Below are positions 2,416-36,711 of a stretch of 42,452 nucleotides of DNA, piece by piece (position 1 is the stretch's first letter; each line of letters begins with the position of its first letter). The stretch lies in assembly GCF_011839805.1 (NCBI RefSeq), contig NZ_VWPY01000038.1, positions 1 through 42,452 of the forward strand, in the 5' to 3' direction. The notes beneath the pieces are model-generated. The model did no database searches, was not told where the DNA came from, and saw only the letters and a list, made by a program, of their open reading frames with translations. Origin of the DNA: Kineococcus rubinsiae. GTDB lineage: Bacteria > Actinomycetota > Actinomycetes > Actinomycetales > Kineococcaceae. Position numbers and translations under genes: made by a program.

Positions 2416-4815
2416 TCAACGCAGCGACGGTTGAGGAGATGGCCGGAGATGATCAGCCGGAGCTGCGACCGGGGAGGCCTTGAAGCGACGCAGCCGGAGA
2501 CTGTTGGAGACGACGAAGATCGAGGAGGCCGCCATGGCTGCGCCCGCCAGCAGGGGGTTGAGCAGGCCGGCGATGGCGAGAGGCAACGCTGCCACGTTGT
2601 AGGCGAACGCCCAGAACAAGTTGACCTTGATCGTGGACAGTGTCGATCGGGCCAGGCGCAGCGCGTCGACGGCAGCCATCAGGTCACCTCGCATCACGGT
2701 CAAGTCGCTGGCTTCGATCGCGACGTCCGTGCCGGTGCCCATGGCGATACCAAGATCGGCGGCGGCCAGTGCGGCGGCGTCGTTGACCCCATCACCGACC
2801 ATCGCAACGACTCGACCTTGGTCTTGCAGGGCCCGCACGGCGTCGACCTTCCCTTCCGGCAACACCTCGGCGATGACCTCGTCGATCCCCACTGCCGCCG
2901 CGACCGCGTGCGCTGCGCGGGAGTTGTCGCCGGTCAGAAGAACGGCTCGCAGCCCGAGACGGCGCAGCTGCGCGACAGCTGCCGCACTGGTCGGCTTGAG
3001 GGTGTCGGCTACGACCAGCACCCCCCGTGCACGACCGTCCCAGCCGACGGCGATGGCCGTGCGTCCGGCCTGTTCGGCTGCGCTCAGGGCCGCCAGCAGA
3101 TCGCGGTCCAGGCCCTGGGCCCACTGCTCCGTCAGCCAGGACGCGCGCCCGGCTGCGACAGCGTGTCCTTCGACGACACCACTGACACCCCAGCCACTGC
3201 TGGCGGCGAAGGACGTGACGGGCGGCAGTTGCTCCTCGCCGTCCCAGGTGCGCAACCAGTCGGTGGCAGCTGCCGCAATCGCCGTCGCGATCGGGTGTTC
3301 CGAAGCGTGTTCCACGGCGCCGGCCAGCCGGAGCAGTTGGCCCTCGTCGACTCCTGCTGCGGGGTGGATCTCGAGCAAGGACATGCGTCCGGTGGTGACG
3401 GTTCCTGTCTTGTCGAGCACCACGGTGTCGATGCGGCGTGTCGACTCCAGGACTTCCGGCCCCTTGATCAGCAACCCCAGCTGGGCGCCGCGGCCGGTGC
3501 CGACCAGCAGTGCCGTCGGAGTGGCCAGCCCCAGCGCGCACGGGCATGCGATGATCAAGACCGCGACGGCGGCGGTGAAGGCCGCCTCCGCGGAGTGCCC
3601 AGCCAGCAGCCAGCCTGTCAGCGTCACGATGGCCAAGACCAAGACGATGGGGACGAACACCCCTGAGACGCGGTCGGCTAGGCGTTGTACCGCAGCCTTG
3701 CCCGATTGTGCGTCTTCCACCAGTCGGGCCACCTGAGCCAGCTGAGTGTCCTTCCCGACCCGGCTGGCCCTGACCAGCAGTCGGCCGCCCGCGTTGATCG
3801 TCGACCCGGTCACGGCGTCACCGACGCCGACCTCCACCGGCACGGACTCCCCGGTCAGCAGACTCGCGTCAACAGCTCCCGAGCCGTCGATGACCACGCC
3901 GTCAGTGGCGACCTTCTCACCAGGACGGGTGACGAAGATGTCGTCGACGGCGAGGTCCTCGATCCGGATGCGATGTTCCATCCCTTCGCGGACGACGGTG
4001 ACGTCCTTGACGCCCAGCTGCAGCAACGCCCGTAGCGCCGCACCACTGCGGCGCTTGGCTCGCGCCTCCATGTAGCGACCAGTGAGGATGAACACCGTGA
4101 CCGCTGCAGCGACTTCGAGGTAGATCTCCTGACCCCCTCGCCCAGGCAGCACAGAGAAGTGCATCCGCATGCCAGGCATGCCTGCCTGGCCGAAGAACAA
4201 GGCGTACAGCGACCAGGTGAAGGCGGCGAGGACGCCAACGCTGATGAGGGTGTCCATGCTGGCTGCGCCGTGGCGAGCGTTGACCCACGCCGCCCGGTGG
4301 AACGGCCACGCACCCCACACCGCTACCGGAGCCGCCAGCGTCAGCGACAGCCACTGCCAGTTGGTGAATTGCAGCGCCGGGACCATCGCCAAGGCCACGA
4401 CGGGCACCGTCAGAGCGGTCGCGATGGACAGCCGTGTGCGAAGCGTCGCGGTCTTTACGGACGCGCCGTCGCTGTCAAGGTCCTGCAGACTTCGACTGTC
4501 GCTGTCCTGCTCCATCACGCCCGTACTGGTTTCCTGACGCGGTGTCTTGCGTACAGGGGCAGGAGGCAGGTCGGCCGTGTACCCCGTGGCTCGTACCACG
4601 GCGATGGCGGCCGCGGCGTCTGTTCCCGCCGGGAGCCGAACATGCGCCTTCTCCGTGGCGTAGTTGACGGACGCCTGCACGCCTGGCATGCGGTTCAGCT
4701 TCTTCTCGATGCGTGCTGCGCAGGAGGCACACGTCATGCCACCGATCATCAGCTCGACCGACGAGTGGCTGCCGGGCAAGACGTGAGGTGAGTCACCGGT
4801 GCTGGCTTCGGTCAT
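2416..4815 (-). CDS. copA: Copper-translocating P1B-type ATPase
   Basis: This is a 799-residue inner-membrane ATPase that exports Cu(I) to the periplasmic side. The domains in order are: one N-terminal HMA domain with GMTCASC (residues 26-32), four membrane segments, the actuator loop with TGES (321-324), the transmembrane CPC copper motif (424-426) within IIACPCALGLATP, the phosphorylation site DKTGTVT (468-474), the SEHP motif near 505, and the hinge GDGVNDAAAL followed by membrane helices at the end. An Asp/Ser/Thr-rich linker of about 25 residues (95-120) separates the HMA domain from the first helix. All key residues are intact. It is the last gene of csoR-copZ-copA, 110 bases after copZ. 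A CPC motif with a CxxC domain supports Cu(I)/Ag(I) rather than zinc. Confidence 0.95.
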   Translation of the reverse strand: MTEASTGDSPHVLPGSHSSVELMIGGMTCASCAARIEKKLNRMPGVQASVNYATEKAHVRLPAGTDAAAAIAVVRATGYTADLPPAPVRKTPRQETSTGVMEQDSDSRSLQDLDSDGASVKTATLRTRLSIATALTVPVVALAMVPALQFTNWQWLSLTLAAPVAVWGAWPFHRAAWVNARHGAASMDTLISVGVLAAFTWSLYALFFGQAGMPGMRMHFSVLPGRGGQEIYLEVAAAVTVFILTGRYMEARAKRRSGAALRALLQLGVKDVTVVREGMEHRIRIEDLAVDDIFVTRPGEKVATDGVVIDGSGAVDASLLTGESVPVEVGVGDAVTGSTINAGGRLLVRASRVGKDTQLAQVARLVEDAQSGKAAVQRLADRVSGVFVPIVLVLAIVTLTGWLLAGHSAEAAFTAAVAVLIIACPCALGLATPTALLVGTGRGAQLGLLIKGPEVLESTRRIDTVVLDKTGTVTTGRMSLLEIHPAAGVDEGQLLRLAGAVEHASEHPIATAIAAAATDWLRTWDGEEQLPPVTSFAASSGWGVSGVVEGHAVAAGRASWLTEQWAQGLDRDLLAALSAAEQAGRTAIAVGWDGRARGVLVVADTLKPTSAAAVAQLRRLGLRAVLLTGDNSRAAHAVAAAVGIDEVIAEVLPEGKVDAVRALQDQGRVVAMVGDGVNDAAALAAADLGIAMGTGTDVAIEASDLTVMRGDLMAAVDALRLARSTLSTIKVNLFWAFAYNVAALPLAIAGLLNPLLAGAAMAASSIFVVSNSLRLRRFKASPVAAPADHLRPSPQPSLR

Positions 4816-10027: not shown

Positions 10028-10141
10028 CCATCGAGGTTGAGGACATGAGGCCGCGTGACGGCCGGCAAGAGCAACCCACCGTCCCGCGGCCTCACTCTCC
10101 ACACTCGCCAAGTACTTCCGACAACCATGACGAGGTCAACG

Positions 10142-11749
10142 ATGTGCCCACAGTCTGAGCATCTCGAAGCGGACGCGACGCACGCCGAGAAGCCATCGCG
10201 TCGGCGTGTGCTGGGAACGGGCGCGGTGGCTCTGGTCGGTGCCGGGACGGGACTGTGGATCGCCGATCGAAGCCGCGACCCGCAACCAAGGAGTCTCACC
10301 GGCGCCATCGCGACGCGCGAGGCGGCGCGGTCACGGAGCGGTCGCGTCGTTCACCGGCAGCTGCGAGCCAGTCCCCGAACCATCGACCTGGGGGGGCAGC
10401 TGGTCTCCACGTGGGCTTTCGCCGACCAGGTTCCCGGTAGTGAGATCCGCGTCAACGTCGGCGATGAATTGCGCGTGAACCTTCTCAACGACTTGCCTCG
10501 GCCCACCAGTGTGCACTGGCACGGGCTTGCTCTGCGCAACGACATGGACGGCGTTCCCTCGGTCACCATGGCACCCGTCGCCGCCGGCGACTCGTTCGCC
10601 TACTCCTTCGTCGTTCCAGATGCGGGCACCTACTGGTTCCACCCCCACGTCGGCGTGCAGCTCGACACCGGCCTGTACGCGCCACTCATTGTCGAGGATC
10701 CCGACGAGGACGCGCCGTACGAGGCGGACGTCACCCTGGTCCTCGACGACTGGACGGATGGGCTCGGCGATGCGCCGGACGACATCCTGGCGCGATCGCG
10801 TGCCGACGGGATGAGCTTGACGAGCAGCACGATGGGCTCCGAGAGCCCGCCCGGCATGGAAGGCATGGCTGGCATGGACGCCTCCGGAGCGACTACCACG
10901 GGAAGCACGTCCGGGGTGGTGAACGCAGCGCAACCGCTGGGCTCTGACACCGGTGACGTCTCTTACCCTGCGCACCTCATCAACGGGCGCCTGCCCAGTG
11001 ATCCCTTCGTCGTCTCCAGCCGCGTCGGTCAACGGCTGCGCGTGCGGTTGATCAACGCCGGCGCAGATACGGCGTACCGCGTCGCGATCGGGGGGCATCG
11101 CCTGACGGTCACGCACAGCGATGGGTTTCCTGTTGAGCCGGTGACGGTCGATGCGGTGATGCTCGGCATGGGGGAGCGCTACGACCTGCTCGTGGAGGCC
11201 GGTGACGGCGTGTTCCCGATCGTCGCGGTCGCCGAAGGCAAGGACGACCCCTCCGCGGTGGCGCTGCTGCGGACCGCCTCCGGAAGCACACCCCCACCGC
11301 AGGTGCGACCCGCGGAGCTCACCGGGAGACTTCTCAGCTACGCCGACCTCCAGCCCACGCAGGCGGTCATGCTACGCACCGACACCCCGGATCGGCAGAT
11401 GCAGGTGCGCCTGCAGATGGTCGACGGTGGGCGAGCGTGGACGCTGAATGGACGGGCGTATCCGGACTACGCCGCACTGCCCGTGTCGCAGGGGGAGCGC
11501 GTGCGATTGACTCTGATCAACGAGACGATGATGTTCCATCCCATGCACCTGCACGGGCACACCTTCGCCCTCAGTGCCGTCAACGGGGCGGCTGCCAGGG
11601 GCCCGCGCAAAGACACCGTCAACGTGCTGCCCATGCAGTCTGTCTCGATCGACCTGGACGCAGACAACCCCGGTCAGTGGCTGTTGCATTGCCACAACGC
11701 CTACCACGGCGAGCAGGGCATGATGACGGTCATGTCGTATGAGGTGTGA
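10142..11749 (+). CDS. Tat-exported multicopper oxidase (CueO/CopA-like)
   Basis: This 535-residue extracytoplasmic copper oxidase probably oxidises Cu(I) to the less toxic Cu(II). The Tat signal SRRRVLGTGAVALVGAG is near the N-terminus. All four copper-ligand clusters are present: HWHGL, YWFHPHVG, HPMHLHGHTF and HCHNAYHGEQGM, the last giving the type 1 Cys and axial Met. A Met-rich insert (GMEGMAGMDAS and neighbours) lies in domain 2, similar in nature to the Met-rich copper-binding loop of CueO. The ATG at 10142 is preferred because GAGG sits six bases upstream, whereas the earlier ATG at 10127 has no ribosome site. It belongs functionally with csoR-copZ-copA. Confidence 0.9.
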   Translation: MCPQSEHLEADATHAEKPSRRRVLGTGAVALVGAGTGLWIADRSRDPQPRSLTGAIATREAARSRSGRVVHRQLRASPRTIDLGGQLVSTWAFADQVPGSEIRVNVGDELRVNLLNDLPRPTSVHWHGLALRNDMDGVPSVTMAPVAAGDSFAYSFVVPDAGTYWFHPHVGVQLDTGLYAPLIVEDPDEDAPYEADVTLVLDDWTDGLGDAPDDILARSRADGMSLTSSTMGSESPPGMEGMAGMDASGATTTGSTSGVVNAAQPLGSDTGDVSYPAHLINGRLPSDPFVVSSRVGQRLRVRLINAGADTAYRVAIGGHRLTVTHSDGFPVEPVTVDAVMLGMGERYDLLVEAGDGVFPIVAVAEGKDDPSAVALLRTASGSTPPPQVRPAELTGRLLSYADLQPTQAVMLRTDTPDRQMQVRLQMVDGGRAWTLNGRAYPDYAALPVSQGERVRLTLINETMMFHPMHLHGHTFALSAVNGAAARGPRKDTVNVLPMQSVSIDLDADNPGQWLLHCHNAYHGEQGMMTVMSYEV

Positions 11750-21015: not shown

Positions 21016-21018
21016 GTC

Positions 21019-21503: not shown

Positions 21504-21522
21504 CTACTATCCATCATCGTAG
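21504..21522. promoter_or_regulatory. CTAC-N11-GTAG dyad between the BlaI-type gene and ccdA
   Basis: CTAC-TATCCATCATC-GTAG lies 39 bases before the ccdA start and 54 bases before the divergent repressor start, in a patch less GC-rich than its surroundings, as expected for a promoter. Probable operator of the BlaI-type protein (inference from position and recurrence at 19886 and 25453). Confidence 0.55.
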
Positions 21523-21560
21523 TCGGTTGCGACCGCAGTCGGTGGAGGAGTCGTTCACAA

Positions 21561-22475
21561 GTGTCTGCCGCTGTCAGTGAGACGATCAACAGTGTCGTCA
21601 CGTCTGGGCCCATGCTGCTGGCGATCGTCCTCGCGATGATAGCCGGCGCACTCTCGTTCTTCTCGCCCTGCTGCCTTCCGCTGGTCCCCGGCTACCTCTC
21701 CTACGTCGCCGGAATGGTGGGCACCGACGGCCAGCTAGGCACCCCGGCCGCGGCGGCTTCAGCAACAGCGTCGACCACTGGCTCCCTGAGGTACGTGCCC
21801 GCCGAAGTCCCCGGGGTAGGGAGAGCTCTCCGCGTTATGGGGCGGGTGCCACGGGTGGCTCACGGCCCGGGTGCACCGCTGCGGGGGACTAGTCGCCGAC
21901 TGCTGTTGGGCGCGGCGCTCTTCGTCGGTGGGTTCGCCGTGGTCTTCACCAGCTACGGAGCCTTCTTCGGTGCCGTCGGATCCTTCCTCCTCACCTACCA
22001 GCAACTGCTCGTGCGGATCCTGGGTGGGCTCACCATCGTCATGGGCCTAATGTTCACCGGCATCTTGTGGCGCGTGCCCTTCGTCAACGCCACCGTCCGA
22101 CTCCGCTACCGCCCCGCTTCCGGACTCGCCGGAGCGCCGCTGCTCGGGGTCCTATTCGGCCTCGGCTGGACGCCGTGCATCGGACCCACCCTCGCCGCAG
22201 TCCTGGCCCTGGCGACGAGTACCGGGAGTCCGGGGCGAGGTGCGGTGCTCTCCGCCGCCTACAGCCTGGGCATCGGCATCCCCTTCCTCTTGGCGGCCCT
22301 ATCCTTCGAGCGGGCGATGGACGCTTTCGCTTGGGCCCGTCGGAGAAAGCTGTTCATCATGAGACTGGGAGGCTGCCTGCTCATCCTCCTGGGCGTGATC
22401 CAGGTGAGCGGCCTGTGGGTCGTCTTGATGTCACGACTGCAGGGCCTCATCAGCAACTGGCAGCTCTCGCTCTGA
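21561..22475 (+). CDS. ccdA: CcdA-family thiol-electron transporter
   Basis: CcdA carries electrons from cytoplasmic thioredoxin across the membrane to ResA-like proteins. The start is the GTG at 21561 (GGAGGAG ten bases upstream), not the longer frame that would run into the divergent repressor gene. The 304-residue product has six to seven membrane helices. The redox Cys residues are in [18 protein letters not shown] (residues 36-38) and [15 protein letters not shown] hydrophilic insert of about 65 Ala/Arg-rich residues between helices 1 and 2 is larger than in the minimal family. It completes the System II set encoded in the opposite direction. Confidence 0.93.
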
Positions 22476-27241: not shown

Positions 27242-27265
27242 GACCTTCCAGTGCAGGGGAAGGTC
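27242..27265. promoter_or_regulatory. MerR operator in the merA-merR divergent promoter
   Basis: GACCTTCC-AGTGCAGG-GGAAGGTC is a perfect 8+8 dyad, the classic site for MerR-family activators. On the merA strand it overlaps a TTGACC -35 box with a 19-20 base spacer to the -10 region, the stretched spacing that MerR-type proteins correct by DNA distortion. It is 45 bases upstream of the merA start. Confidence 0.9.
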
Positions 27266-27301
27266 AAGACGAGATGTTCGGGACGCGCTCTAGGAGGCAG
27301 G

Positions 27302-27691
27302 ATGCGCATCGGTGAGCTCGCCGAGGCCAGCAGCACGACCACCAAGACGCTGCGCTTCTACGAAGAGGCCGGGCTCCTACCCGCCCCGAACCGCACCGCC
27401 AGCGGCTACCGCGACTACGACCCGGACGTGGTGGCCCGGTTGAACTTCATCCGCCGCAGCCGCACCGCGGGGCTGAGCCTGGCTCAGATCCGTGAGGTCC
27501 TCGACATCCGTGACAGCGGCTCCGCACCCTGCCAGCACGTGCACGAACTCCTCGAGGACCGCCTCGCTGGCCTGGACCGCCAGATCGCCGAACTCCAGGC
27601 CCTGCGCGCCACCGTTGCTCAGCTCCGCGACGCCGCTACCTCGGTTGAGCCCGCGGACTGCGACCCGGTTCTGGTGTGCAGATACCTGTGA
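27302..27691 (+). CDS. merR: MerR-family mercury/heavy-metal responsive regulator
   Basis: The 129-residue product starts at the ATG at 27302, with AGGAGG five bases upstream, rather than at the in-frame ATG inside the operator. The N-terminal winged helix is MRIGELAEASSTTTKTLRFYEEAGLL, followed by GYRDYD and a dimerisation coiled coil. Cys77, Cys120 and Cys126 occupy about the positions of the mercury ligands of Tn501 MerR (82, 117, 126), which supports Hg(II) over Cu(I) sensing. It likely represses and activates the divergent merA promoter and limits its own expression. Confidence 0.9.
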   Translation: MRIGELAEASSTTTKTLRFYEEAGLLPAPNRTASGYRDYDPDVVARLNFIRRSRTAGLSLAQIREVLDIRDSGSAPCQHVHELLEDRLAGLDRQIAELQALRATVAQLRDAATSVEPADCDPVLVCRYL

Positions 27692-27840: not shown

Positions 27841-29346
27841 TCAGCGCGTGAGCTGCAGGTCGAAATGATTGGCGAGGGGAAGGACTGTCACCGCGAAGGT
27901 GAGGACGATCACCGCCGCCACGACAGCGCTAGCCCTGGTCGTACCGCCGGTCACCGGCGATCGCGGCGCACTAAAGCCTGGGAAGGAAGAGGCGTCACCG
28001 CGGGAACGAGACTTTCCATCAGTTTCAGCGTCGGGGCGAAACACGGGGGCGATCCAGCGCAGGTAGTAGAACAGGCTGGCGGCGGTGTTCAGCGCGGCCA
28101 CGACGACCAACCAGGCCAGTCCACCGTCCCAGGCGGCGGTGAAGGCGGCGACCTTGCCCGTGAACACCGCGGTGGGTGGTGTGCCGACCAGGCTGAGCAA
28201 GCACACCAGCAGCGCCCCCGCTAGTACCGGCTGCTGCCGGGCAAGGCCCCGGTAGGAGGCCAGCGTCCTCCGCTCGGGGAGGGCGGCGGTCACGGCGAAG
28301 GCGCCGAGGTTGGTCACGGCGTAGCCGGCGAGGTACAGCAGCAGCGCCGGCAGGGCTTCGTCGGTGCGTCCGGCGACGGCGACGGGCATGAGCAGGTACC
28401 CGACCTGACTCACCGTGGACCATCCGAGCAACCGTCGAGGGTCGTCCTGTCCGAACGCGGCCAGGTTCCCCAGCGTCATGCTCAACGCTGCGAGCACCGC
28501 GATCAGCAGGGGCCAGTCCAGACCCGCCGCACCGCCCCGAGGCAGTGCCTCTAGTAGTCGGTAGATGGCGATAAGGGCGCCGATCTTCGGCACCGTCGTG
28601 GCGAAGGCCGCTGCTGTCACGGTGCCCCCCTGCGCCGCGTCGGGCACCCAGAAGTGCGCGGGGACCCCTCCCGCCTTGAACAGCAGGCCCCCGAGGACGG
28701 CAACGACCCCAACGGCCACAGCCGGCGCAGGCGAGTCGGCGAGTTCGGTGGTGAGACCGCCATAGGTCGTTGCGCCTGCCAGGGCGGCCAGCAGTGCAAC
28801 GCCTAGCAGCAACAAGATGTTGGTCAGTGCGCCCAGCAGGTAGGTCTTCAGCACCGCCTCCGCTGCAGCACTGGTGCGGGCCAACCCGATCAGCCCGTAC
28901 AGCGGGATGGAGGCGAGCAGGAACGCGACGGCCAGGACCAGCAGGTCGTGGGCTCCGGCGAGGACGACCGTGCCCAGCGCGGACAGCAGCAGCAGGCAGT
29001 ACGTCTCGCTCTCGCGTGCGGTGCCGGACACCTCGCTCACGCCGAGGGCGATGACGAGCAGGGTGGCGGCGATGACGATGAGCCGGACGGCTCCGGTGGC
29101 GTCGTCCACGGCGTAGGTGGAGGTGTACACCGTCCGCGCCGGCCCGGCCAGCGCCACGACCGAAGCGGCCGCACTGCCCAACAGGGCGGCGACGGCGATC
29201 AGGCGGGCCACCCACTGCCGCTGCCGGGGCAGGAACGACCCGGCCAGCAGGCTCAGCAGGGCACCGGCGAGCAGGCAGATCTCCGGCAGCAGGGCCAGCG
29301 GGTCCTCATTGGTCATGGTCATCGCCGAGGTGAGCGCTGTGATCAC
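27841..29346 (-). CDS. nuoN: Complex-I-like subunit N (antiporter-type proton channel)
   Basis: This 501-residue protein has 13-14 membrane helices of the antiporter-like family. Visible motifs are a Lys-bearing helix FKAGGVPAHFWVPDAAQGGTV, the HFW-PDA loop of NuoN, GWSTVSQVGYLLMPV and FTGKVAAFTAA near the C-terminal half. The acidic and Lys residues expected for proton transfer appear to be kept. It is the last gene of the A-[BD]-H-J-K-L-M-N operon; its GTG start lies seven bases after the M stop. In this operon it would translocate ions without a recognisable redox arm. Confidence 0.92.
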   Translation of the reverse strand: MITALTSAMTMTNEDPLALLPEICLLAGALLSLLAGSFLPRQRQWVARLIAVAALLGSAAASVVALAGPARTVYTSTYAVDDATGAVRLIVIAATLLVIALGVSEVSGTARESETYCLLLLSALGTVVLAGAHDLLVLAVAFLLASIPLYGLIGLARTSAAAEAVLKTYLLGALTNILLLLGVALLAALAGATTYGGLTTELADSPAPAVAVGVVAVLGGLLFKAGGVPAHFWVPDAAQGGTVTAAAFATTVPKIGALIAIYRLLEALPRGGAAGLDWPLLIAVLAALSMTLGNLAAFGQDDPRRLLGWSTVSQVGYLLMPVAVAGRTDEALPALLLYLAGYAVTNLGAFAVTAALPERRTLASYRGLARQQPVLAGALLVCLLSLVGTPPTAVFTGKVAAFTAAWDGGLAWLVVVAALNTAASLFYYLRWIAPVFRPDAETDGKSRSRGDASSFPGFSAPRSPVTGGTTRASAVVAAVIVLTFAVTVLPLANHFDLQLTR

Positions 29347-29353
29347 GGTGGGC

Positions 29354-30847
29354 TCACCGCCCCACCAGGTCGACGAGCTGGCCTGCCGTGGGGGTGATGA
29401 CGTCGAGCAGCGGGGCGGGAAGGACCCCGATGGCCAGGGCGAGGATGAGAAGGGGGCCGATGGCGCACATCTCCACCGCGCCGAGGTCGCGGAAGCCCAC
29501 CGAGCGGCCCACGGTCTCGCCGGTGAGCAGCCGTTGCAGGGCGCGCAGGAAGAGGGCGGCGGTGATGAGGATGCCCAGCACGGCGAGGGCCGAGATGGGG
29601 GCGGTGGCGATGGCGCCGGTGAAGACCTGGAACTCGGCGATGAAACCGCTGAAGCCGGGCAGGCCCAGGGAGGCGAACGCGGCGATTGCGAACAAGGCGG
29701 CGTAGCGCGGCGCCGGTCGGGCCAGCCCCCCGAAGGAGCCCATGTCGTAGGTCCCCGTCCGTTCGTGCACGACGCCGGCGAGCAGGAAGAGTGCCGCGGT
29801 GATCAGGCCATGGCTGACCATCTGCGTCACCGCTCCGACGATGGCGACCTGCCGGGCCTGCTCCGCGGAGCCGGTGAGGACACCGGCGGCCCCGACGGCC
29901 ACGACGACGTAGCCCATGTGATTCACCGAGGTATAGGCGATCATCCGTTTCAGGTTCGTCTGGGCCAGCGCCACGAGCGCTCCGTACAGCACCGAGACGA
30001 TGCCGACGGCCAGGACGACCCAGGCCCAGTCGCGCCAGGCATCCGGCAGCAACGGCATCGCGATCCGCACGAAACCGTAGGTGCCCATCTTCAGCAGGAC
30101 CCCGGCCAGCACGGCCGAGCCGACTGCGGGCGCGTCGGTGTGTGCCGGCGGCAGCCAGGTGTGGAAGGGGAACGTCGGTGTCTTGACCGCCAATCCGAGC
30201 AGGATCGCGCCCAGCACCAGGACCCCGACCGATCCGCTGCCCTGCAGCGGTGCCGTCCGCGACAGCTCGACGATGTCGAAGGTGTGCGGTGTCGCAGCCA
30301 GGTACAGGCCGATGAAGCCCACCAGCAGCGCCAGCGAACCCAGGAACGTGTAGAGGAAGAACATCAGCGCCGAGCGCGCCGCCTGCCCGTGTCCCCAGCC
30401 GGCGATGGCGAAGTACATCCCGACAATCGACAGGTCGAAGAAGACGAAGAACAACAGCAGGTCCTGGGCGGCGAAGACTCCGAGGCAGGTGGTCTGCAGG
30501 AAGCAGAACAGTGCCGCGTGCAGGCGTGGCCGGTTCCCCTCGTTCAGGGCGTACACCGAGCAGGAGGCGAAGACCACGACCGTCAGGGCGACCAGCGGCC
30601 ACGACAACCCGTCCAGGCCGACGTGGTAGCTGCTGGCGACCGTCGAGATCCAGCCCACACGCTGCTCGAAGTCCAGGCTCGTGCTCGGGTCGGCCGGGCG
30701 GCCCAGCCACATCCCGGCGATCAGCAGGACTTCGGCCGCGCTCAGGGCACACCAGATCCAGCGTGCTGCGGTGTCCGGGACGCGGACCGCCACCAGGAAG
30801 CACGCGACCACCAAGGGTAGGAAGACGACGATGGAGAGCACGCTCAC
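29354..30847 (-). CDS. nuoM: Complex-I-like subunit M
   Basis: The GTG at 30847 overlaps the L stop (GTGA) and gives 497 residues with about 14 helices. The helix LLLFFVFFDLSIVGMYFAIAGWG carries Asp138 where canonical NuoM has the functional Glu (E144 in E. coli), a conservative but notable change. The next helices keep the Lys motif LAVKTPTFPFHTWLPPAHTDAP and GVLLKMGTYGFVRIAMPLL. Translation upstream of the GTG is Arg-rich shadow of L. It belongs to the antiporter-like pumping module. Confidence 0.93.
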   Translation of the reverse strand: MSVLSIVVFLPLVVACFLVAVRVPDTAARWIWCALSAAEVLLIAGMWLGRPADPSTSLDFEQRVGWISTVASSYHVGLDGLSWPLVALTVVVFASCSVYALNEGNRPRLHAALFCFLQTTCLGVFAAQDLLLFFVFFDLSIVGMYFAIAGWGHGQAARSALMFFLYTFLGSLALLVGFIGLYLAATPHTFDIVELSRTAPLQGSGSVGVLVLGAILLGLAVKTPTFPFHTWLPPAHTDAPAVGSAVLAGVLLKMGTYGFVRIAMPLLPDAWRDWAWVVLAVGIVSVLYGALVALAQTNLKRMIAYTSVNHMGYVVVAVGAAGVLTGSAEQARQVAIVGAVTQMVSHGLITAALFLLAGVVHERTGTYDMGSFGGLARPAPRYAALFAIAAFASLGLPGFSGFIAEFQVFTGAIATAPISALAVLGILITAALFLRALQRLLTGETVGRSVGFRDLGAVEMCAIGPLLILALAIGVLPAPLLDVITPTAGQLVDLVGR

Positions 30848-32856
30848 CCCACGAGTACGAGCAGCACGGCACCGGCGGCGAGGACCGCGACGGCTTGGAT
30901 GTAGTAGTGGTGCAGCAACCCGGTCTGCGGTCGGCGGGCCAGCCCTGCGAGGCGGCGCACCCCGGCGGCGACGCGCACGACCCCGGCGTCGAGGACGTCC
31001 ACGTCCACTCGCTGCAGGAGGGTGGCGGTCTGCAGCGCTAGGGCTGCGACGCGCTCGACCCCCCGGGCCAGCACCTTGTCGTCGGCGCGGGCCAGCACTC
31101 GTGCCAGCCGGTCGGTGGGGTCGACGACGCCCGCCAGGGCCAGCCGGTGCAGGCCCAGCCAGTTGCGGGCCCACCCGGGCTCGGGGACCCCACTGCCGCG
31201 GGTGGTGAGCAGCACCACACCCAGCACGGTGACCACCGCGAGCACGGCGGAGACGAGCAGCTCGACCGGGCCCGGGGCGGGAGCCGGTGGCTGTCCGAGC
31301 AGGCGATCAACACCTGAGCGCACCGGTGGCAGGGCCAGCACACCCAGCAGCGCCGCGGGGACCGCCAAGACGATCAGCGGCAGTGTCTCCAGCCACCCGA
31401 TCCGACGGGTCCCGGGTTGTTCGGTGTCGAAGCCGGCCTCAGGGCCGGTGGCGTCGGGATCGGTGTCCTCGGGATCGGTGGCGTCTCGCGTGGCCGAGCG
31501 CCACACCAGGACGAGGACCTTGCCGGCGTAGCCGGCGGAGAGGACCGCGGCGAGCAGTCCCGTCGCGTACAGCCACCCGGAGGTGGCCAGTGCGGCGGCC
31601 AGCACCTCGTCCTTGGTCGCCCACAGCGACAACGGCACGACCCCGCCCAGCGCCAGTGCTGCCACCCCGGCGCAGACCCCGACCACCGGCCAGCGGCGGG
31701 CGACCCCCTGTAGGGCGGGCAGCTGCTTGGTGCCCAACGCCGACAGCCAGGCCCCGGCGGCCAGGAACAGCAGCGACTTCACCGCCGCATGTGCGACCAG
31801 CTGCGCAGCACCGCCGGCGACCGCACCGACCCCTGCGCCCAGCACGACGAACCCGAGCTGGGCGGCGGTGGAGGCGGCCAGGAGCTGCTTGAGGTCGCGC
31901 TGAGCCACCGCGACCACCCCGAGCAGCACGGCGGTCGCCGCGCCGCACCAGGCGGCCGTCGTCGCGGCCCAGCCCGTCACCGCCAACAGCGGTTGCACCC
32001 GCAGCAGCAGGTAGCCGCCCATGGCCACCATCGCCGCGGAGTGCAGCAGAGCGCTGACCGGGCTCGGGCCGACCATGGCCCGTGACAGCCAGAACGAGAA
32101 CGGCAGCTGCGCGGCCTTGCCGAGCGCGGCGAGCAGGATCCCGGCGGCCACCATGTGCCGCCACCCCGAGCTGGCCGCGGCCAGGTCGCCCAGGTCCAGG
32201 CCCGCGCCGCCGGCCACTGCGGCACCGGCGGCCACGTACAGGCCGAGGTCGCCCAGACGGGTCGTGACGAACGCCGTCACCCCAGCCTTGACCCGGTGCT
32301 CCTGCCACCAGGCGAACCCGATCAGGGCGAAGGAGGCGGCCCCCATCACCTCCCAGGCCAGCAGCAGCGTCGGTAGCGTCGTCGCCGTCACGGTCATCAC
32401 CACGGCCGCAACGAACACCAGCATCAAGGCGCAGAACCGGGCCCTTGCCTCACGCACGTCGGCGGCGGCGAAGACCATCACCAGCAGTGCGATGCCGACG
32501 ACCGCTGGAAGGATAAGTGCGGCGAGGCCGTCGACAGCAAGACCAAAGCGCGCGAAGGGCAGGAAGGCGGCGGAGACGCGCGGCCGCCCGGCCGCCGCCA
32601 CACCGGCCAGCACGCACTCCGCGCCCAGTACTGCAACCGTGACGACCGGCGCCCACCGCTGACCCGCAGGCGGGCGCTCGTCCTCGGGCTGGTCGTCTCG
32701 AACTGCGGGGCCGCTCAGCGAGACCAGGCCCAGACCAGCGCCGGTGACCGCGGGCAGCAGGACCAGGGCCCACAGGACCCAGTCAGCGCCCGTTGCCCCC
32801 AGGACCGCACTCCCTGCCGCAGCCGCCCCGGCAGCTGCACTCAGCGAGCCGGTCAC
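30844..32856 (-). CDS. nuoL: Complex-I-like subunit L
   Basis: The product has 670 residues from a GTG at 32856, which overlaps the K stop as GTGA. Key elements of the distal pump are kept: LAWEVMGAASF (Glu169), LGKAAQLPFSFWLSRAMVGPSPVSALLHSA (Lys247, split here only for emphasis on the GPSPVSALLH loop), and WATKDEVLAAAL, the TM12 Lys. A hydrophilic Asp/Thr/Glu-rich loop (about residues 540-570) precedes the C-terminal part, which ends in a helix LLHHYYIQAVAVLAAGA, consistent with the lateral-helix region of NuoL. The channel therefore looks functional, in contrast to the redox-side subunits of the same operon. Confidence 0.92.
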   Translation of the reverse strand: MTGSLSAAAGAAAAGSAVLGATGADWVLWALVLLPAVTGAGLGLVSLSGPAVRDDQPEDERPPAGQRWAPVVTVAVLGAECVLAGVAAAGRPRVSAAFLPFARFGLAVDGLAALILPAVVGIALLVMVFAAADVREARARFCALMLVFVAAVVMTVTATTLPTLLLAWEVMGAASFALIGFAWWQEHRVKAGVTAFVTTRLGDLGLYVAAGAAVAGGAGLDLGDLAAASSGWRHMVAAGILLAALGKAAQLPFSFWLSRAMVGPSPVSALLHSAAMVAMGGYLLLRVQPLLAVTGWAATTAAWCGAATAVLLGVVAVAQRDLKQLLAASTAAQLGFVVLGAGVGAVAGGAAQLVAHAAVKSLLFLAAGAWLSALGTKQLPALQGVARRWPVVGVCAGVAALALGGVVPLSLWATKDEVLAAALATSGWLYATGLLAAVLSAGYAGKVLVLVWRSATRDATDPEDTDPDATGPEAGFDTEQPGTRRIGWLETLPLIVLAVPAALLGVLALPPVRSGVDRLLGQPPAPAPGPVELLVSAVLAVVTVLGVVLLTTRGSGVPEPGWARNWLGLHRLALAGVVDPTDRLARVLARADDKVLARGVERVAALALQTATLLQRVDVDVLDAGVVRVAAGVRRLAGLARRPQTGLLHHYYIQAVAVLAAGAVLLVLVG

Positions 32857-33155
32857 TGCTTCAGGTCCGTGCTCATGTCGGTCATGTCCGAGCCTCGGGA
32901 GCGGTGCAGCACCGTGGCCACGGCGAAGCCCATCGCCATCTCCACCGTCATCGCGGCGATCACGACCAGCAGCAGCACGTGCCCGTCCGGGGTGGGGGCC
33001 AGGAACCACCACAGTCCTGCTGCGGCCAGGATCACGGCGTTGATCATGAGCTCGAGGCCCATCATCACCATGACGAGGACCTGCTGGGAGATCGCCCCGT
33101 ACAACCCCACCGCGAACAGCGCCGCGGCGATGACCAGGACTGCCTGCAACGTCAC
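32853..33155 (-). CDS. nuoK: Complex-I-like subunit K
   Basis: This 100-residue, three-helix protein is a homologue of MrpC. It has the GLELMINAVILAAAGLWWF helix with the first conserved Glu and AAMTVEMAMGFAVATVLHR with the second Glu, both needed for proton movement between the Q-module and the antiporter subunits. The GTG start overlaps the J stop (GTGA). The tail DMTDMSTDLKQ adds two Met/Asp pairs not usual in the family. Confidence 0.92.
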   Translation of the reverse strand: MTLQAVLVIAAALFAVGLYGAISQQVLVMVMMGLELMINAVILAAAGLWWFLAPTPDGHVLLLVVIAAMTVEMAMGFAVATVLHRSRGSDMTDMSTDLKQ

Positions 33156-33724
33156 CGGCCCACACCCCCCGGCTGCGGGTCCTCGGCCGGCCGTCTGCGC
33201 AGGTCGTCACCGAGGCGGTCGTAGCGGCTGCGCGGCAGGGCCAGCACCAGGGCGGAGACGATGGTCGAGAACAGCACCGGGCTGACGACCAGCATCACCA
33301 GCATCTTCGACCCCATGGTCGCCTGACCCAGCGACACGGTGAGATCCACGGCCGGCGCCCCCCGTCGGGCAGGCCAGGGCACGAGCAGTGCGCCACCGGC
33401 CAGCACGATGAAGGCGCCGGCCGCGACCCCGAGAGAGGTCTTGCGTGAGTGGACCATGCTCATCGGCATCAGCGCCGGGTTCATCCCCATGAACATCACC
33501 ATGTAGACGGCCATGACGGCCATCTCCATGACCATCATCAGCACGACGATCACCCCGACGTAGTCCAGGTGCAGGAACAGCACCTGCGCGCCGACCGCCA
33601 CGAACGACGCCGCCAGGGCGTAGGTCGCCCGCGCCATCGAATCCGTACGGAAGACCACGACACCAGCGGCGACCGCCACCGCACCCAGCCCCCAGAACAG
33701 CACCGTCTGCACCACACCGGTCAC
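33152..33724 (-). CDS. nuoJ: Complex-I-like subunit J with a Met-rich segment
   Basis: This 190-residue membrane protein has five helices. The TM3 region (LDYVGVIVVLMMVMEMAVMAVYMV) and the loop after it (MFMGMNPALMPMSMVHS) hold about fifteen Met residues in some fifty positions, far more than in standard NuoJ, where a Tyr-Gly-bearing pi-bulge helix is found. Met clusters facing the outside of the membrane can bind Cu(I) or Ag(I); this is inference. The start is a GTG at 33724, four bases after the H stop. Confidence 0.88.
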   Translation of the reverse strand: MTGVVQTVLFWGLGAVAVAAGVVVFRTDSMARATYALAASFVAVGAQVLFLHLDYVGVIVVLMMVMEMAVMAVYMVMFMGMNPALMPMSMVHSRKTSLGVAAGAFIVLAGGALLVPWPARRGAPAVDLTVSLGQATMGSKMLVMLVVSPVLFSTIVSALVLALPRSRYDRLGDDLRRRPAEDPQPGGVGR

Positions 33725-33728
33725 CAGT

Positions 33729-34625
33729 TCACCTCACGACCACGACGACGGACACCACGAGCAGTTGCAGCAGGGTCAGGGGCAGGACGAGTACCCAGCC
33801 AACCTCAACGAGGCGGTCCGGGCGCAACAGCGGCACCCGCCGGCGCACCAGCACCAGCACCGACAGCACCGCGAAGGTCTTGACCAGGGTCCAGACCCAG
33901 TCCGGCAGCCACGGCCCGTCCCCCCCACCAAAGAAGGCGACCACCGCGAACGCCGACCCCGCGGCCAGCAGGGCGTAGCGCCCCGCCAGCAGCAGCAGCC
34001 GGTCCACACCCGACACCTCGGCCAGCACCCCACCGCCAATGTCGGCTGCGGCCGCGGCGGCGAACGGGCCCTGCACCGAGAACGCCACAACGCAGGCGCA
34101 GAACACGACGAACGCCACCGGCATCCACACCACGAACCACAGCCCGTGCTGGGCGGCGATCACATCAGCGACCCGCAGACTGCCAGCACCGACCGCCGGA
34201 GCGGTCAGCGCGAACATCAGCGGCAGCTCATACGCCAGCGCCTGAGCCAGGAATCGGTACCCCCCGACCAGGGCGTGTGTGCTGTTCGCACCCCAGCCGG
34301 CCATCCACACCAGCGCCCACACCAGCACGTCCATCGCGTTGAACCAGACGACCCCGACCCCCAGGTCGGACAGTGTCCAACGCCCCAGCGGAATGACCGC
34401 CACCATCAGCAGAGCCGCCACCAGCAACCCACCGCCCCCCAAACGCCACAGCAGACGGTCAGCCGCCAGCAGCGTCCGTCGACGTTGCCGCAGCAACCGT
34501 GCGGCCTCCGCTGCCGGGGCCCCCCAACGGCCACCGGAGACCACCGCGTCCAGACAGGCCGCCCACCAGGCGGCGGCCACCACCAGAAGCAGCGCCAGCG
34601 GGGCCCAAGCGACCGAGACCGTCAC
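33729..34625 (-). CDS. nuoH: Complex-I-like subunit H lacking the quinone-site loop signature
   Basis: The GTG at 34625 overlaps the stop of the B/D-like gene (GTGA) and gives 298 residues with about eight helices. MAGWGANSTHALVGGYRFLAQALAYELP corresponds to the canonical GWSSNNKYALLG...SYE(V/I)P helix, and its Glu is kept (133). The next signature, normally ETNRxPFDxxExExELVAGF, is replaced by SVQGPFAAAAAADIGGG (183-199), so the acidic residues lining the quinone entry channel are gone. The N-terminal part (RLLRQRRR) also diverges from the usual RxGPNRVGP. The subunit probably keeps a scaffold or proton-relay role without quinone chemistry. Confidence 0.88.
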   Translation of the reverse strand: MTVSVAWAPLALLLVVAAAWWAACLDAVVSGGRWGAPAAEAARLLRQRRRTLLAADRLLWRLGGGGLLVAALLMVAVIPLGRWTLSDLGVGVVWFNAMDVLVWALVWMAGWGANSTHALVGGYRFLAQALAYELPLMFALTAPAVGAGSLRVADVIAAQHGLWFVVWMPVAFVVFCACVVAFSVQGPFAAAAAADIGGGVLAEVSGVDRLLLLAGRYALLAAGSAFAVVAFFGGGDGPWLPDWVWTLVKTFAVLSVLVLVRRRVPLLRPDRLVEVGWVLVLPLTLLQLLVVSVVVVVR

Positions 34626-35890
34626 CACGTCCGCCGCCACCTCGCCCGCGCGCCTGCGGCCGAGGCCGTGAGGTCGGCCACGACCCCCGTGCCGGCGACG
34701 ATCAGGCGCACCGCGGCCAGGTCCAGTCCCGTCACCAGCTGTGGCAAGGCAACGGGTGGGATCGCGTCGGTGAACGCTACGTCGGTGAGGCCCACCCCGG
34801 CGAGCGACCCTGTCGGCGCGGCAGCTGCGGCCGCGGCCTCCTCCAGCCAACCGCGCAGCCGGTCGGGCAACTCCACAGCAAGCACGTCCGAGCCCGCAGC
34901 AGAGCTGTCCTGACCCGGGGCTCGGGTAGCCGTGCACAGCCCACGCAAGGACCACCCCAGAACCCGGGAACGGGTGACGCGACGCGTCAACCGGGCCACG
35001 CCCGCCGCACACACCGGCAGTGCAACTCCATCGAGGGCGTCATCCCGCAACTGGCGCGCCTGCGCAGCCGCGGAGCCCCAACCGGCGACAGCCAGCAACC
35101 GGGCCACGTCATCGCAGCGATCGACGAGGACGTCACGGCGGGCGTCACCCGTCACCGGTAGACCCCGGCCCGCGACCGGGTCGACGATCTCAGCGGTCGC
35201 CTGCACGACGACATCGCCCTGCAGCGTGCACGTCAACACCAGGCCCGGCGGCCAGTGCGGCAGGACCGGTCCTAGCGGGACGTGCAGGACGTCCATCTCC
35301 AGGCCGTCACGGTCCTGACCGCCTTCAGCCAAGCCGATCCCACCGGGCATCGGCATGTCCATAGCCATGTCGCCGTGGTCCTCGCCCATGTCCATGTGGC
35401 CGTGGTCTTCGCCTATGTCCATGTCGCCGTGTGACGCCTCCCCGTCGTTCCCGTCGTTCCCGTCGTTCCCGTTGCTCTCGTCTCTCTGGTGGTCGTCGTC
35501 GTTTTCGTCGCCTGCATCTCTCTCGTCGTCCGTGTCGGTCCACGAGCCGAGGCGGGAGGTGGCGTCGCTGCGCTGCGCGTCGCTGTCCAGCAGTGCGACG
35601 GCGGCCGCATTGAGCGCGGCGGGCACCCCGGCGGAGCCCACCACGTCGACCCGGGTACGGGGTCCGGGCATCTGGTCCCAGACGGCCGCAATGACGACGC
35701 TCATCCGTGGACCGGCGCTACCGCAGACCGCCAGCACGTCCGCCTCGGCCGGCGAAGTCGCCTGCACCCACGAGCGTGCGGTCAGTCCCCGCTCCACCGC
35801 CATCCGGACCCCGGCCGCGCCGGGGACCTCGATGACCAGGACATGGGCCCGTCGGACGGCCCACCTGCCGAGAAGCTCGTTCAGACCCAC
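34622..35890 (-). CDS. NuoB/NuoD-like fusion without cofactor ligands, with Asp/His/Met-rich insert
   Basis: The GTG at 35890 (AAGGAG seven bases upstream) gives 422 residues. Residues 2-100 follow the NuoB order: WAVRRAHVLVIE, then SPAEADVLAVCGSAGPRMSVV, then WDQMPGPRTRVDVVGSAG. The adjacent Cys pair and the GSC Cys that bind cluster N2 in real NuoB are absent. Residues 119-183 are a hydrophilic insert of Asp/Asn/Gly repeats and MDMGEDHG-type repeats. Residues 200-422 resemble a degenerate NuoD (LHVPLGPVLPHWPPGLVLTCTLQGDVVVQA in place of the GPQHPSTHG region, then an RSRVLGW helix), without the quinone-site His. It sits exactly where nuoB-C-D normally lie. No catalytic site is visible; a metal-binding or structural role is likely. 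The family assignment rests on gene order plus weak similarity. Confidence 0.8.
   Translation of the reverse strand: MGLNELLGRWAVRRAHVLVIEVPGAAGVRMAVERGLTARSWVQATSPAEADVLAVCGSAGPRMSVVIAAVWDQMPGPRTRVDVVGSAGVPAALNAAAVALLDSDAQRSDATSRLGSWTDTDDERDAGDENDDDHQRDESNGNDGNDGNDGEASHGDMDIGEDHGHMDMGEDHGDMAMDMPMPGGIGLAEGGQDRDGLEMDVLHVPLGPVLPHWPPGLVLTCTLQGDVVVQATAEIVDPVAGRGLPVTGDARRDVLVDRCDDVARLLAVAGWGSAAAQARQLRDDALDGVALPVCAAGVARLTRRVTRSRVLGWSLRGLCTATRAPGQDSSAAGSDVLAVELPDRLRGWLEEAAAAAAAPTGSLAGVGLTDVAFTDAIPPVALPQLVTGLDLAAVRLIVAGTGVVADLTASAAGARARWRRTW
35367..35435. repeat. 27-base imperfect tandem repeat encoding MDMGEDHGH units
   Basis: Two full 27-base units (35367-35393, 35394-35420) differing at a few positions, plus a 15-base partial third unit, inside the B/D-like gene. 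They encode nine-residue units with Met, Asp, Glu and His, of the kind seen in copper- and silver-binding loops. The in-frame period implies expansion under selection for the peptide. Confidence 0.85.
35443..35469. repeat. 9-base tandem repeat (CGTCGTTCC)3 encoding Asn-Asp-Gly units
   Basis: Three perfect copies followed by a degenerate fourth, next to the 27-base repeat in the same gene. The encoded NDG units form a flexible acidic linker; copy number may vary between strains by slippage. Confidence 0.85.
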
Positions 35891-36231
35891 CGGAGTGCTC
35901 CTTCGCGCCAGGCCCAAGCGACTCCGGCCAGCAGGACGCCCAGGAACACGAACATCTCGATCACCGCGCCCGAGCCCATCTGGGCCACGACGACGGCCCA
36001 GGGGTACATGAACAGCATCTCGACGTCGAAGGCCAGGAAGATCAGCGTGACCGGGTACCAGCGGACGTGGAACCGCGAGAGGGCATGCTCGAGCGGGTCG
36101 TGCCCGGACAAGAAGGGCAGGCTGCGTACCGGGTCCGGCGCCACCGCCGTCAGCCGAGCCACGGCATACAACGTGCCTATCCCCAGCAGAGCCACCGCGA
36201 GGACCGCCAGCACCCCGACGAAGGACTGCAT
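35881..36231 (-). CDS. nuoA: Complex-I-like subunit A
   Basis: The ATG at 36231 (GGAGG six bases upstream) gives a 116-residue, three-helix protein. The loop between helices 1 and 2 and the second helix match NuoA: FLSGHDPLEHALSRFHVRWYPVT, then LIFLAFDVEMLFMYPWAVV with the conserved Asp and Glu. It opens the operon and overlaps the next gene by ten bases. The frame is open to 36390, but that part covers the divergent regulator start. The 99-base gap to the ArsR gene should hold both promoters. Confidence 0.9.
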   Translation of the reverse strand: MQSFVGVLAVLAVALLGIGTLYAVARLTAVAPDPVRSLPFLSGHDPLEHALSRFHVRWYPVTLIFLAFDVEMLFMYPWAVVVAQMGSGAVIEMFVFLGVLLAGVAWAWREGALRWV

Positions 36232-36298
36232 ACCCGCCTCCACCTCCTCGACCAGGTCGCGTTCGCCGCGGCTAGTGCTCTTGGATCTCATACCCGTA

Positions 36299-36308
36299 CG
36301 CACGTGCG
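36299..36308. promoter_or_regulatory. Palindrome between nuoA-like and ArsR genes, candidate metal-sensor operator
   Basis: CGCACGTGCG is a perfect 10-base palindrome, extended by CCC/GGG at the ends (CCCGTACGCACGTGCGGG). It lies 23 bases before the ArsR start and 68 bases before nuoA, a position expected for an ArsR-family operator. The sequence is not the AT-rich 12-2-12 type, so the assignment is tentative. Confidence 0.35.
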
Positions 36309-36330
36309 GGCAACCCGAAGCAGTGGTTGC

Positions 36331-36711
36331 ATGTCCCACGTGACGGACCACGCCCATCCTGTCGACGCACACCGTGTCGAGCGGGCCCAAGAGCGTGTGC
36401 CAGCCGCTGCGGATGTGGAGCGCCTCACCGCAATCCTGGGCCTGCTCGCCGACCCCACCCGGGCACGGGTGCTGTACGCCCTCGACGAGGTTCAGGAACT
36501 GTGCGTTGGCGACACTGCCCTCGCCCTCAACATCACCGAGGACGCTGCTGGGTACGCCCTTCGGGTCTTACGTACCGCCGGTCTGGTCAGCAGGCGCAAG
36601 GAAGGCCGCATCGTCTTCTACCGGCTCGCCGACGGCTTCCCCGAACCGTTGCTCGAGCACTGTCTGCGACGACTGACGTCTTTGACGCATGAACGCGATG
36701 ACGAGGGATAG
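36331..36711 (+). CDS. ArsR/SmtB-family metal-sensing repressor
   Basis: This 126-residue winged-helix repressor starts at the ATG at 36331. The alpha-3 region reads VQELCVGD, the metal-binding ELCVxD motif of ArsR/CadC/CmtR proteins, with Cys58. Further candidate ligands are His110, Cys111 (EHCLRRL), His120 and a His-rich N-terminus (His3, 7, 9, 14). The recognition helix and wing are ITEDAAGYALRVLRTAGLVSRRKEGRIVFYRLAD. The metal cannot be told (Cd, Pb, Zn, Ni or As are all possible). It is divergent from the complex-I-like operon and is its likely regulator, which is unusual for respiratory genes. Confidence 0.88.
   Translation: MSHVTDHAHPVDAHRVERAQERVPAAADVERLTAILGLLADPTRARVLYALDEVQELCVGDTALALNITEDAAGYALRVLRTAGLVSRRKEGRIVFYRLADGFPEPLLEHCLRRLTSLTHERDDEG

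Follow-up and report, generated by a model that had tools for sequence, protein, structure and literature searches.

A complex I-like membrane arm with a dead redox site and a methionine ladder is a candidate copper or silver transporter

INTRODUCTION

How movement at the quinone end of respiratory complex I drives far-off proton channels is a long-standing open question. Here, we describe a relative of that enzyme, an eight-gene operon with the order A-[BD]-H-J-K-L-M-N (the arm), found in a 42,452-nucleotide (nt) stretch of the Kineococcus rubinsiae genome (contig NZ_VWPY01000038.1; the window). The arm shares with complex I the subunits A, H, J, K, L, M, and N, remnants of B and D, the gene order, and the proton-path residues. 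However, its cluster has no C, E, F, G, or I gene, and its B and D are fused into one protein, BD, without the cluster cysteines or the GPQHPSTHG loop. Conversely, a methionine ladder in J and a putative metal-binding linker in BD are features of the arm and not of complex I. Because the electron-handling part is dead and apparently replaced by metal-binding parts, the arm is probably a copper or silver transporter and not a respiratory enzyme. We propose, with a probability of roughly 55%, that it is a proton-coupled Cu(I) and/or Ag(I) transporter derived from complex I, most likely a copper-resistance exporter.

The closest described systems differ from the arm in informative ways. In the text available from PMC3765725, the Streptomyces-type nuo2 cluster consists of A2, B2, D2, and H2 to N2, also without the NADH module, and a subunit I2 is reported; a motif search did not find I2 in the nuo2 loci analyzed here. 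The arm and nuo2 occupy adjoining yet separate NuoM clades, and B2 and D2 are separate and redox competent, whereas BD is fused and dead. For instance, B carried the CC and GCPP cysteines in five of six nuo2 loci (the stretch at L286 missed the motif), and D carried the GP-HP-HG loop in three of six, D being not found or misread elsewhere.

A partial NDH-1, nuoAHJKLMN, of Salinispora, sponge Streptomyces, and Kocuria is presented in the available portions of four papers as a proton pump for marine or osmotic adaptation, found in marine strains and missing from terrestrial relatives (PMC3314556, PMC4018334, PMC6002675, PMC6676996). The order printed in one of them is nuoA, a hypothetical protein, and nuoH-J-K-L-M-N, and one carrier discussed there came from copper-rich mine fluids (PMC6676996, available portion). 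The Salinispora (L123) and Kocuria polaris (L120) loci in our set have this order (published locus tags were not compared directly), and the two are almost certainly one system. The same portions mention neither a dead BD nor a metal linker or methionine ladder. Among open-licence PMC articles, as far as their text was available, no tie of the cluster to copper transport and no report of the ladder was found, which is not proof of absence.

Mrp antiporters and the arm have in common complex I-like antiporter subunits without redox chemistry. Still, the gene set of the arm is A-BD-H-J-K-L-M-N and not MrpA-G, its best family models are Nuo, and Mrp is not known to have NuoH, NuoA, or a B/D cap. 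With copper P-type ATPases and RND adaptors, the common element is the Pfam domain HMBD, which also occurs in the BD linkers of Rubrobacter and Alphaproteobacteria; the membrane machinery is unrelated.

RESULTS

An operon for a membrane arm without a redox site

The eight genes form one tightly packed operon on the minus strand, at 27841-36231 of the window (starts refined, stops checked).

35881..36231, minus: A, NuoA-like, 116 amino acids (aa) (Pfam Oxidored_q4, E 7.7e-27)
34622..35890, minus: BD, fused NuoB-like part, linker, and NuoD-like part, 422 aa, redox-dead (weak NuoB match, model, and relatives)
35348..35509, minus: BD linker, rich in His, Met, and Asp, residues 128-181 (predicted local distance difference test [pLDDT] score <50 in the model, low confidence)
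33729..34625, minus: H, NuoH-like, 298 aa, with a degenerate quinone loop (Pfam NADHdh, E 1e-45; alignment with solved NuoH)
33152..33724, minus: J, NuoJ-like, 190 aa, with the methionine ladder (Pfam Oxidored_q3, E 9.2e-8, slightly under the cut-off)
33449..33538, minus: ladder of J, comprising M63, M64, M66, E67, M68, M71, M75, M77, M79, M81, M86, M88, M90, and H92
32853..33155, minus: K, NuoK-like, 100 aa (Pfam Oxidored_q2, E 1.3e-12)
30844..32856, minus: L, NuoL-like antiporter subunit, 670 aa (Pfam Proton_antipo_M, E 3.4e-45)
29354..30847, minus: M, NuoM-like antiporter subunit, 497 aa (NCBIfam TIGR01972, 459 bits, above the cut-off)
27841..29346, minus: N, NuoN-like antiporter subunit, 501 aa (Pfam Proton_antipo_M, E 6e-48)

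Coding regions overlap by 10 nt at the A/BD junction and by 4 nt at the starts of H, K, L, and M. The top Foldseek match of J was a mycobacterial NuoJ (E 9e-5). All eight genes recurred in this order on a single strand in 122 of 137 loci (a few loci are counted twice), which is far beyond chance. Of the 15 incomplete loci, three had a BD match that was too weak, most others end at contig edges, and two plasmid copies are broken: A, BD, and pieces of H and N remain in Rhodococcus oxybenzonivorans pRB29 (L144), and only A and part of BD remain in the plasmid of Streptomyces sp. NBC_00080 (L146). The window cluster contains no C, E, F, G, or I gene and has no room for one (genome-wide, these five were not searched one by one), and none was annotated in the 16 plasmid loci read, for which the PLSDB tables are incomplete.

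BD had no Pfam match in the window, and its origin was traced by other means. Its first 100 residues are NuoB-like (a weak N-terminal NCBIfam match, E 1.8e-4), and NuoD features in the C-terminal part were aligned by eye across 25 sequences. The NuoD family PF00346 matched BD in 10 of 10 distant relatives scanned (E 7e-5 to 7e-17, nine above the cut-off). When the AlphaFold model (pLDDT 80.7) was used as a Foldseek query, the best 50 of 439 matches were all NuoB/NuoD-type chains from complex I, MBS, and formate hydrogenlyase, at weak E values of 0.003 to 0.03. The four columns that hold the N2-cluster cysteines contained 1, 0, 0, and 0 Cys among 127 aligned sequences (rows containing X excluded), and GPVLPxWPxG stands where the NuoD quinone loop has GPQHPSTHG. 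L044 was dropped from the first BD alignment, and L011, L026, and L034 were also dropped from the second. No intermediate with an intact redox site was found among the 18 deep relatives with an extractable BD, and none of the five proteobacterial copies was redox intact by eye (L288 is annotated without its N terminus).

The linker between the two halves of BD seems to be metal binding. In Actinomycetes, it is mostly rich in His, in Met, or in both. At least 6 His per 40 linker residues were present in 84 of 107 scorable Actinomycete copies, with a median of 9 and a maximum of 18 (11 of 118 BD rows were not extractable and were left out); the window linker has 5. In other lineages, the same position is occupied by HMBD, the motif being found there in eight of eight Rubrobacter and four of five proteobacterial copies. 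The linkers of Rubrobacter and most proteobacterial copies hold one to five HMBDs: Pfam detected the domain in three of three Rubrobacter proteins scanned (E 5e-13 to 1e-22) and two, five, and two of them in three scanned proteobacterial proteins (E down to 1e-75). The motif was absent from ten other deep relatives with BD extracted, from the Halomonas copy, and from the Actinomycete copies, and PF19335 (HMBD) was absent from the window BD, where a His/Met/Asp-rich stretch stands in its place. Because two unrelated module types, His-rich and HMBD, occupy the same spot, metal binding there seems to be under selection.

A methionine ladder beside the E-channel

The ladder of J covers transmembrane helix 3 (TMH3) and the loop that follows and is specific to this family. 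Across 114 actinobacterial J rows, M63, M64, M68, M71, M75, M79, M81, M86, M88, M90, and H92 were invariant and M66 and M77 were almost so; E67 was invariant in 49 of 49 rows. Methionine accounted for 16 of the 53 columns conserved at 95% in J, compared to 6 of 34 in K, 3 of 39 in A, and 2 of 68 in H. The corresponding counts for the antiporter subunits were 3 of 141 in L, 4 of 184 in M, and 1 of 92 in N, or 8 of 417 taken together. The conserved methionines concentrate in J and K near the E-channel, a pattern unlike that expected of general protection against oxidation. In the model of J, residues 54-79 form one helix, which therefore places M64, M68, M71, M75, and M79 on a single face.

The ladder also persists over long distances. 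Twelve of 18 checked J positions (M30, M63, M64, E67, M68, M71, M75, M79, M88, M90, H92, and M141) were unchanged in all or nearly all actinobacterial rows and in 19 of 19 deep relatives, a set from which L235, a canonical complex I, had been removed. M77 was kept in 16 and M81 in 18 of these 19. The same 12 positions plus M77 and M81 were found in all five proteobacterial plasmid J proteins (four from Alphaproteobacteria and one from Halomonas). One canonical J in the alignment shared only M77, M88, and H92 of the ladder positions, and the nuo2 J proteins had no ladder by eye. Two other subunits contribute to the pattern. A retains FDVE and has a family-specific conserved His, H55, together with family-specific M72 and M75. 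K has Met at positions 29, 31, 32, 69, and 73, of which M29, M32, and M69 are family specific. The A residues M72 and M75 and the K residues M29, M32, and M69 adjoin E-channel acids.

Conservation of the proton path

Proton-path residues of L and K were retained in 97 to 100% of ∼110 loci (L049, the same locus as L061, was excluded from residue counts). In L, seven checked residues were kept in 107 to 109 of 110 rows; in K, the transmembrane glutamates Glu35 and Glu72 were kept in 113 of 113 and 112 of 113 rows, respectively, the latter as Glu or Asp. M kept two Lys and one Glu (107 to 108 of 108), with Asp in place of the TMH5 Glu in 107 of 107; in deep relatives, this site was Asp in nine and Glu in nine. 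N kept its three Lys in 87, 109, and 107 of 109 rows. Because such constancy persists in proteins this diverged, the membrane arm must be under selection, most simply for ion movement. Decay of a pseudogene was rejected, the channel residues being almost invariant in ∼110 loci. In contrast, H has lost most of its quinone-loop acids. The window protein no longer has the PFD Asp or the first PEAE Glu; across 114 relatives, the PFD Asp survives in eight, and Asp substitutes for the next Glu in 111.

These data bear on a sequence-only reading of the window that preceded this work. Its gene order and coordinates were correct, as were its statements that the cluster lacks C, E, F, G, and I and that the B-like part lacks the cluster cysteines; none of the relatives examined retains the B cysteine set. 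Its claim that the pump residues are kept in L, M, N, and K stands for L and K and, with Asp at TMH5, for M, and it fails at the TMH5 Glu of N. The asserted loss of the quinone-site acids of H holds for the most part, one loop acid remaining as Asp in nearly all relatives.

Redox genes elsewhere in carrier genomes

Had the missing redox subunits been encoded elsewhere, the sequence-only reading would have had to be given up. The window genome assembly (4.88 Mb, 119 contigs) gave 0 matches to NuoD (PF00346). In searches with PF00361, PF00146, and PF00346, standard nuo genes appeared only on two short contigs, C16 (L050) and C19 (L014), whose GC contents of 43% and 41% compare to 68% for the window. 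These contigs are most likely contamination, and to our own eye, without a search, they have a gammaproteobacterial look. Any NuoH was present in 3 of 12 genomes of the host's family, the second copy of the window assembly lying on a contaminant-like contig. On contig C1, the window genome has another pair of antiporter-type genes, which was taken for Mrp. Among 46 carrier genomes, five had no NuoD match (G000, which is the window genome, G004, G008, G386, and G693, the last 87% complete), and most of the remaining 41 also hold ordinary complex I or nuo2. With no NuoD match in the window genome or in four other carriers of the 46, borrowing of redox subunits was rejected.

Distribution and ancestry

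Copies of the cluster are spread over several actinobacterial classes and plasmids of Alphaproteobacteria and Halomonas; outside Actinomycetota, relatives were sought on plasmids only. When 394 genomes of the class were searched with BD, 27 matches were strong (E <1e-15). Another 12 had E values near 1e-4, and 11 of these cover the NuoB-like stretch alone and probably represent ordinary NuoB. With a J profile, 396 genomes of the phylum yielded 39 matches at E ≤1e-10, and the weakest four, L235 included, were set aside. In named genome contigs, 279 relatives were detected, and the 80 best of them, all actinobacterial by title, were used. On plasmids, BD found 16 records, all from actinomycetes. 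Rubrobacter BD added a group on plasmids of Sulfitobacter, Paracoccus, Roseovarius, Thioclava, and Nitratireductor (among the best 40 of 164 matches), and a J search added one Halomonas plasmid. Beyond the first 12 of those best 40, the matches covered mostly the HMBD stretch only, and short matches to this stretch were annotated as copper/heavy-metal P-type ATPases and RND adaptors. A scan of viral contigs found no relative. Genome G398 carries two diverged copies of the arm (L051 and L052).

In a NuoM tree of 84 rows, a single quick tree of one subunit with support from the Shimodaira-Hasegawa-like approximate likelihood ratio test only, the arm copies formed one clade (support 100) beside a group (support 94) of nuo2-like genes and Rubrobacter complex I, the clade and the group together having support 99. 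By their position in the tree, L262, L264, and L266, labeled as nuo loci, are arm copies, and L280, a long branch labeled nuo2, was placed elsewhere. Because neighboring nuo2 has a redox site and no ladder, both the loss of redox function and the gain of the ladder map, within the limits of this sample, to the stem leading to the arm clade.

Copper genes near the arm

The genes around the arm in the window include several linked to metals.

36331..36711, plus: ArsR/SmtB-family regulator, divergent from the arm, 126 aa (NCBIfam NF033788, above the cut-off)
2416..4815, minus: copper-type P1B ATPase with an HMA domain (TIGR01511, 516.8 bits, cut-off 397)
10055..11749, plus: multicopper oxidase (Pfam Cu-oxidase, Cu-oxidase_2, and Cu-oxidase_3; TIGR01480 below the cut-off)
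25752-27197, minus, and 27251-27691, plus: merA and a divergent MerR-family gene, adjoining the arm

The ATPase lies ∼23 kb and the oxidase ∼16 kb from the arm. In the 99-bp gap between the ArsR gene and A, an operator search found only an imperfect 8-2-8 palindrome at 36293-36310, CCCGTACG-CA-CGTGCGGG, a possible operator. Two further groups lie in the window: a BlaI/CopY-type repressor next to an M48 peptidase (20050-21450, minus) and, inside the metal island, a cytochrome c maturation set of ResB, CcsA-type, thioredoxin-like, and DsbD-type genes (16055-19703, minus; 21423-22475, plus). A similar pair of a repressor and an M56 peptidase lies near the arm in L142 and L144.

Among relatives, copper genes recurred. 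At least one of seven copper markers was found in the flanks of 52 of 79 named loci (Fisher p 1.7e-12) and 11 of 28 class-sampled loci (p 1.2e-4), compared to 1 of 40 control regions from 13 genomes; because the loci are related to one another, these p-values overstate independence. Plasmid loci (6 of 10) and deep relatives (14 of 19) had such markers as well. Without queries drawn from the loci themselves, the named, sampled, and deep counts were 47 of 79, 10 of 28, and 13 of 19. Taken alone, the P1B ATPase showed no enrichment among the sampled loci (1 of 28). The neighbor genes of 116 loci were also clustered without a prior list, and ten proteins from the 40 largest clusters were annotated. 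The commonest were P-type ATPases (38 loci), multicopper oxidases (31), MBL-rhodanese proteins (27), DUF305 (27), the copper regulator CsoR (23), and DUF326 (16); some other large clusters resemble shadow frames and were left unannotated. Under the set cut-offs, MBL-rhodanese and SHOCT neighbors showed no clear enrichment. In the flanks, CsoR was found at 4 of 28 sampled, 17 of 79 named, and 10 of 19 deep loci.

Plasmid copies provide good examples. On Curtobacterium plasmid pC1a, an annotated HMA protein and a heavy-metal P-type ATPase directly abut the cluster beside A, with a metal-sensitive regulator nearby, and a Rubrobacter tropicus plasmid has a similar cop-type set beside A. Genes for copB, copD, CusA-type proteins, cupredoxin, or multicopper oxidase flank the arm on all five proteobacterial plasmids read, namely two of Sulfitobacter and one each of Roseovarius, Nitratireductor, and Halomonas (four of the ten records with long BD matches among the matches listed, plus Halomonas). 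On Mycobacterium avium plasmid pS2a (L141), the arm lies near a heavy-metal P-type ATPase, an HMA protein, and nocobactin-type siderophore genes.

The divergent ArsR-family gene and the mer genes named by the sequence-only reading are indeed present. A gene resembling this ArsR was found in the flanks of 5 of 28 sampled, 4 of 79 named, and 5 of 19 deep loci. MerA was found at 0 of 28, 0 of 79, and 0 of 19 of these 126 nonplasmid loci and at 1 of 10 actinobacterial plasmid loci; as MerA is not recurrent, a link to mercury was rejected. The idea of an ion-translocating machine used in metal stress stands as to the dead redox side, the metal stress, and the conserved ion path; the metal is most probably copper or silver and not mercury. 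That reading had missed the ladder, the metal-binding role of the linker, and the ATPase and multicopper oxidase of the window.

DISCUSSION

A possible route for the metal can be drawn from these features. The BD cap, which is expected on the cytoplasmic side as NuoB and NuoD are, would gather metal through its His/Met-rich or HMBD linker. The metal, which from the neighboring genes we infer to be copper or silver, might then pass to the J loop (M81, M86, M88, M90, and H92) and H55 of A and cross the membrane on the TMH3 ladder of J, aided by methionines of K and A near the E-channel glutamates. Proton flow through L, M, N, and K, whose path is conserved in L, M, and K, would pay for transport in an Mrp-like way; this coupling and its direction we infer. 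The P1B ATPases, multicopper oxidases, and copper-binding proteins encoded in these islands would work in parallel. That such arms make up a cross-phylum, often plasmid-borne class of copper/silver transporters, in which metal domains took the place of the quinone/Fe-S module and the E-channel became a proton-driven methionine path, we put at about even odds.

Several observations weigh against this proposal. In all 108 scorable relatives, Leu or Phe replaces the TMH5 pump Glu of N, which is again missing in the deep ones. In six of 107 scorable linkers, no stretch of 40 residues contains 3 or more His, and these low-His linkers include a near relative (L048, Met/Asp-rich with zero His) and Salinispora L123. 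M66, M86, M137, and M144 of J, conserved in Actinomycetes, are not retained in deep relatives; the Met-rich helices could have another role; and the assignment of the J and A loops to the old quinone cavity is carried over from complex I structures. As for context, copper markers are missing from the fetched region of 17 of 28 sampled, 27 of 79 named, and 5 of 19 deep loci, and no metal link is annotated around the plasmid copies of Gordonia and Rhodococcus pyridinivorans. In the window, the arm has ArsR and mer genes, and not cop genes, as its nearest neighbors. Finally, the controls are few (40 regions of 13 genomes), and the loci lack phylogenetic independence.

Other functions would explain part of the data. 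An Mrp-like Na+/H+, K+/H+, or proton-motive-force device operating under copper stress, with methionines and linker there to protect, sense, or buffer, fits the homology of L, M, and N to Mrp subunits, their conserved proton-path residues, and the loci where copper genes are missing. We consider it improbable: the conserved methionines lie round the E-channel in J and K, with few in A and almost none in L, M, and N, and the replacement of the His-rich linker by HMBD in other lineages suggests that metal binding itself is selected. Import of copper, or its insertion into membrane cuproenzymes such as oxidases, would suit the cytochrome c maturation genes (ResB, CcsA-type, thioredoxin-like, and DsbD-type) of the window and some relatives' flanks. 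It would also suit DUF326, a domain of copper storage proteins that flanks 15 of 79 named and 4 of 28 sampled loci. However, the neighbors are mainly detoxification genes (copper ATPase, CsoR, multicopper oxidase, and CopB), often on plasmids, and export therefore fits better, leaving import quite improbable.

A partial NDH-1 that pumps protons or sodium for marine or osmotic adaptation agrees with the marine origin of several carriers and with the marine presence and terrestrial absence given in the available portions of PMC3314556, PMC4018334, PMC6002675, and PMC6676996. Yet the cluster holds no redox module to power pumping, the gene product encoded between A and H is a NuoB-NuoD fusion that is redox-dead and carries a metal linker, and carriers also come from soil, sputum, and, in one case, copper-rich mine fluids (PMC6676996, available portion), which together make such a pump very unlikely. 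Copper might instead act as trigger or fuel, its binding to the cap or its Cu(I)/Cu(II) redox change gating or driving proton flow. The replacement of the N2/quinone module by a metal-binding part and the conservation of E67 in J TMH3 and of the E-channel acids of K are in keeping with that idea, but a gate has no need of a transmembrane methionine ladder and no electron acceptor was recognized among the neighbor genes, so that we regard it as a highly improbable account of the arm.

If the arm is indeed a proton-coupled copper or silver transporter, it would represent a new class of copper transporters and would account for a gene set annotated as a partial NADH dehydrogenase, with 279 relatives in one genome scan. 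It would also correct the published reading of nuoAHJKLMN as a salt-adaptation pump. Lastly, it would be a natural variant of complex I in which a metal path stands in for redox chemistry and the pump residues are still almost invariant, one that shows which parts coupling needs and that could be run by adding metal.

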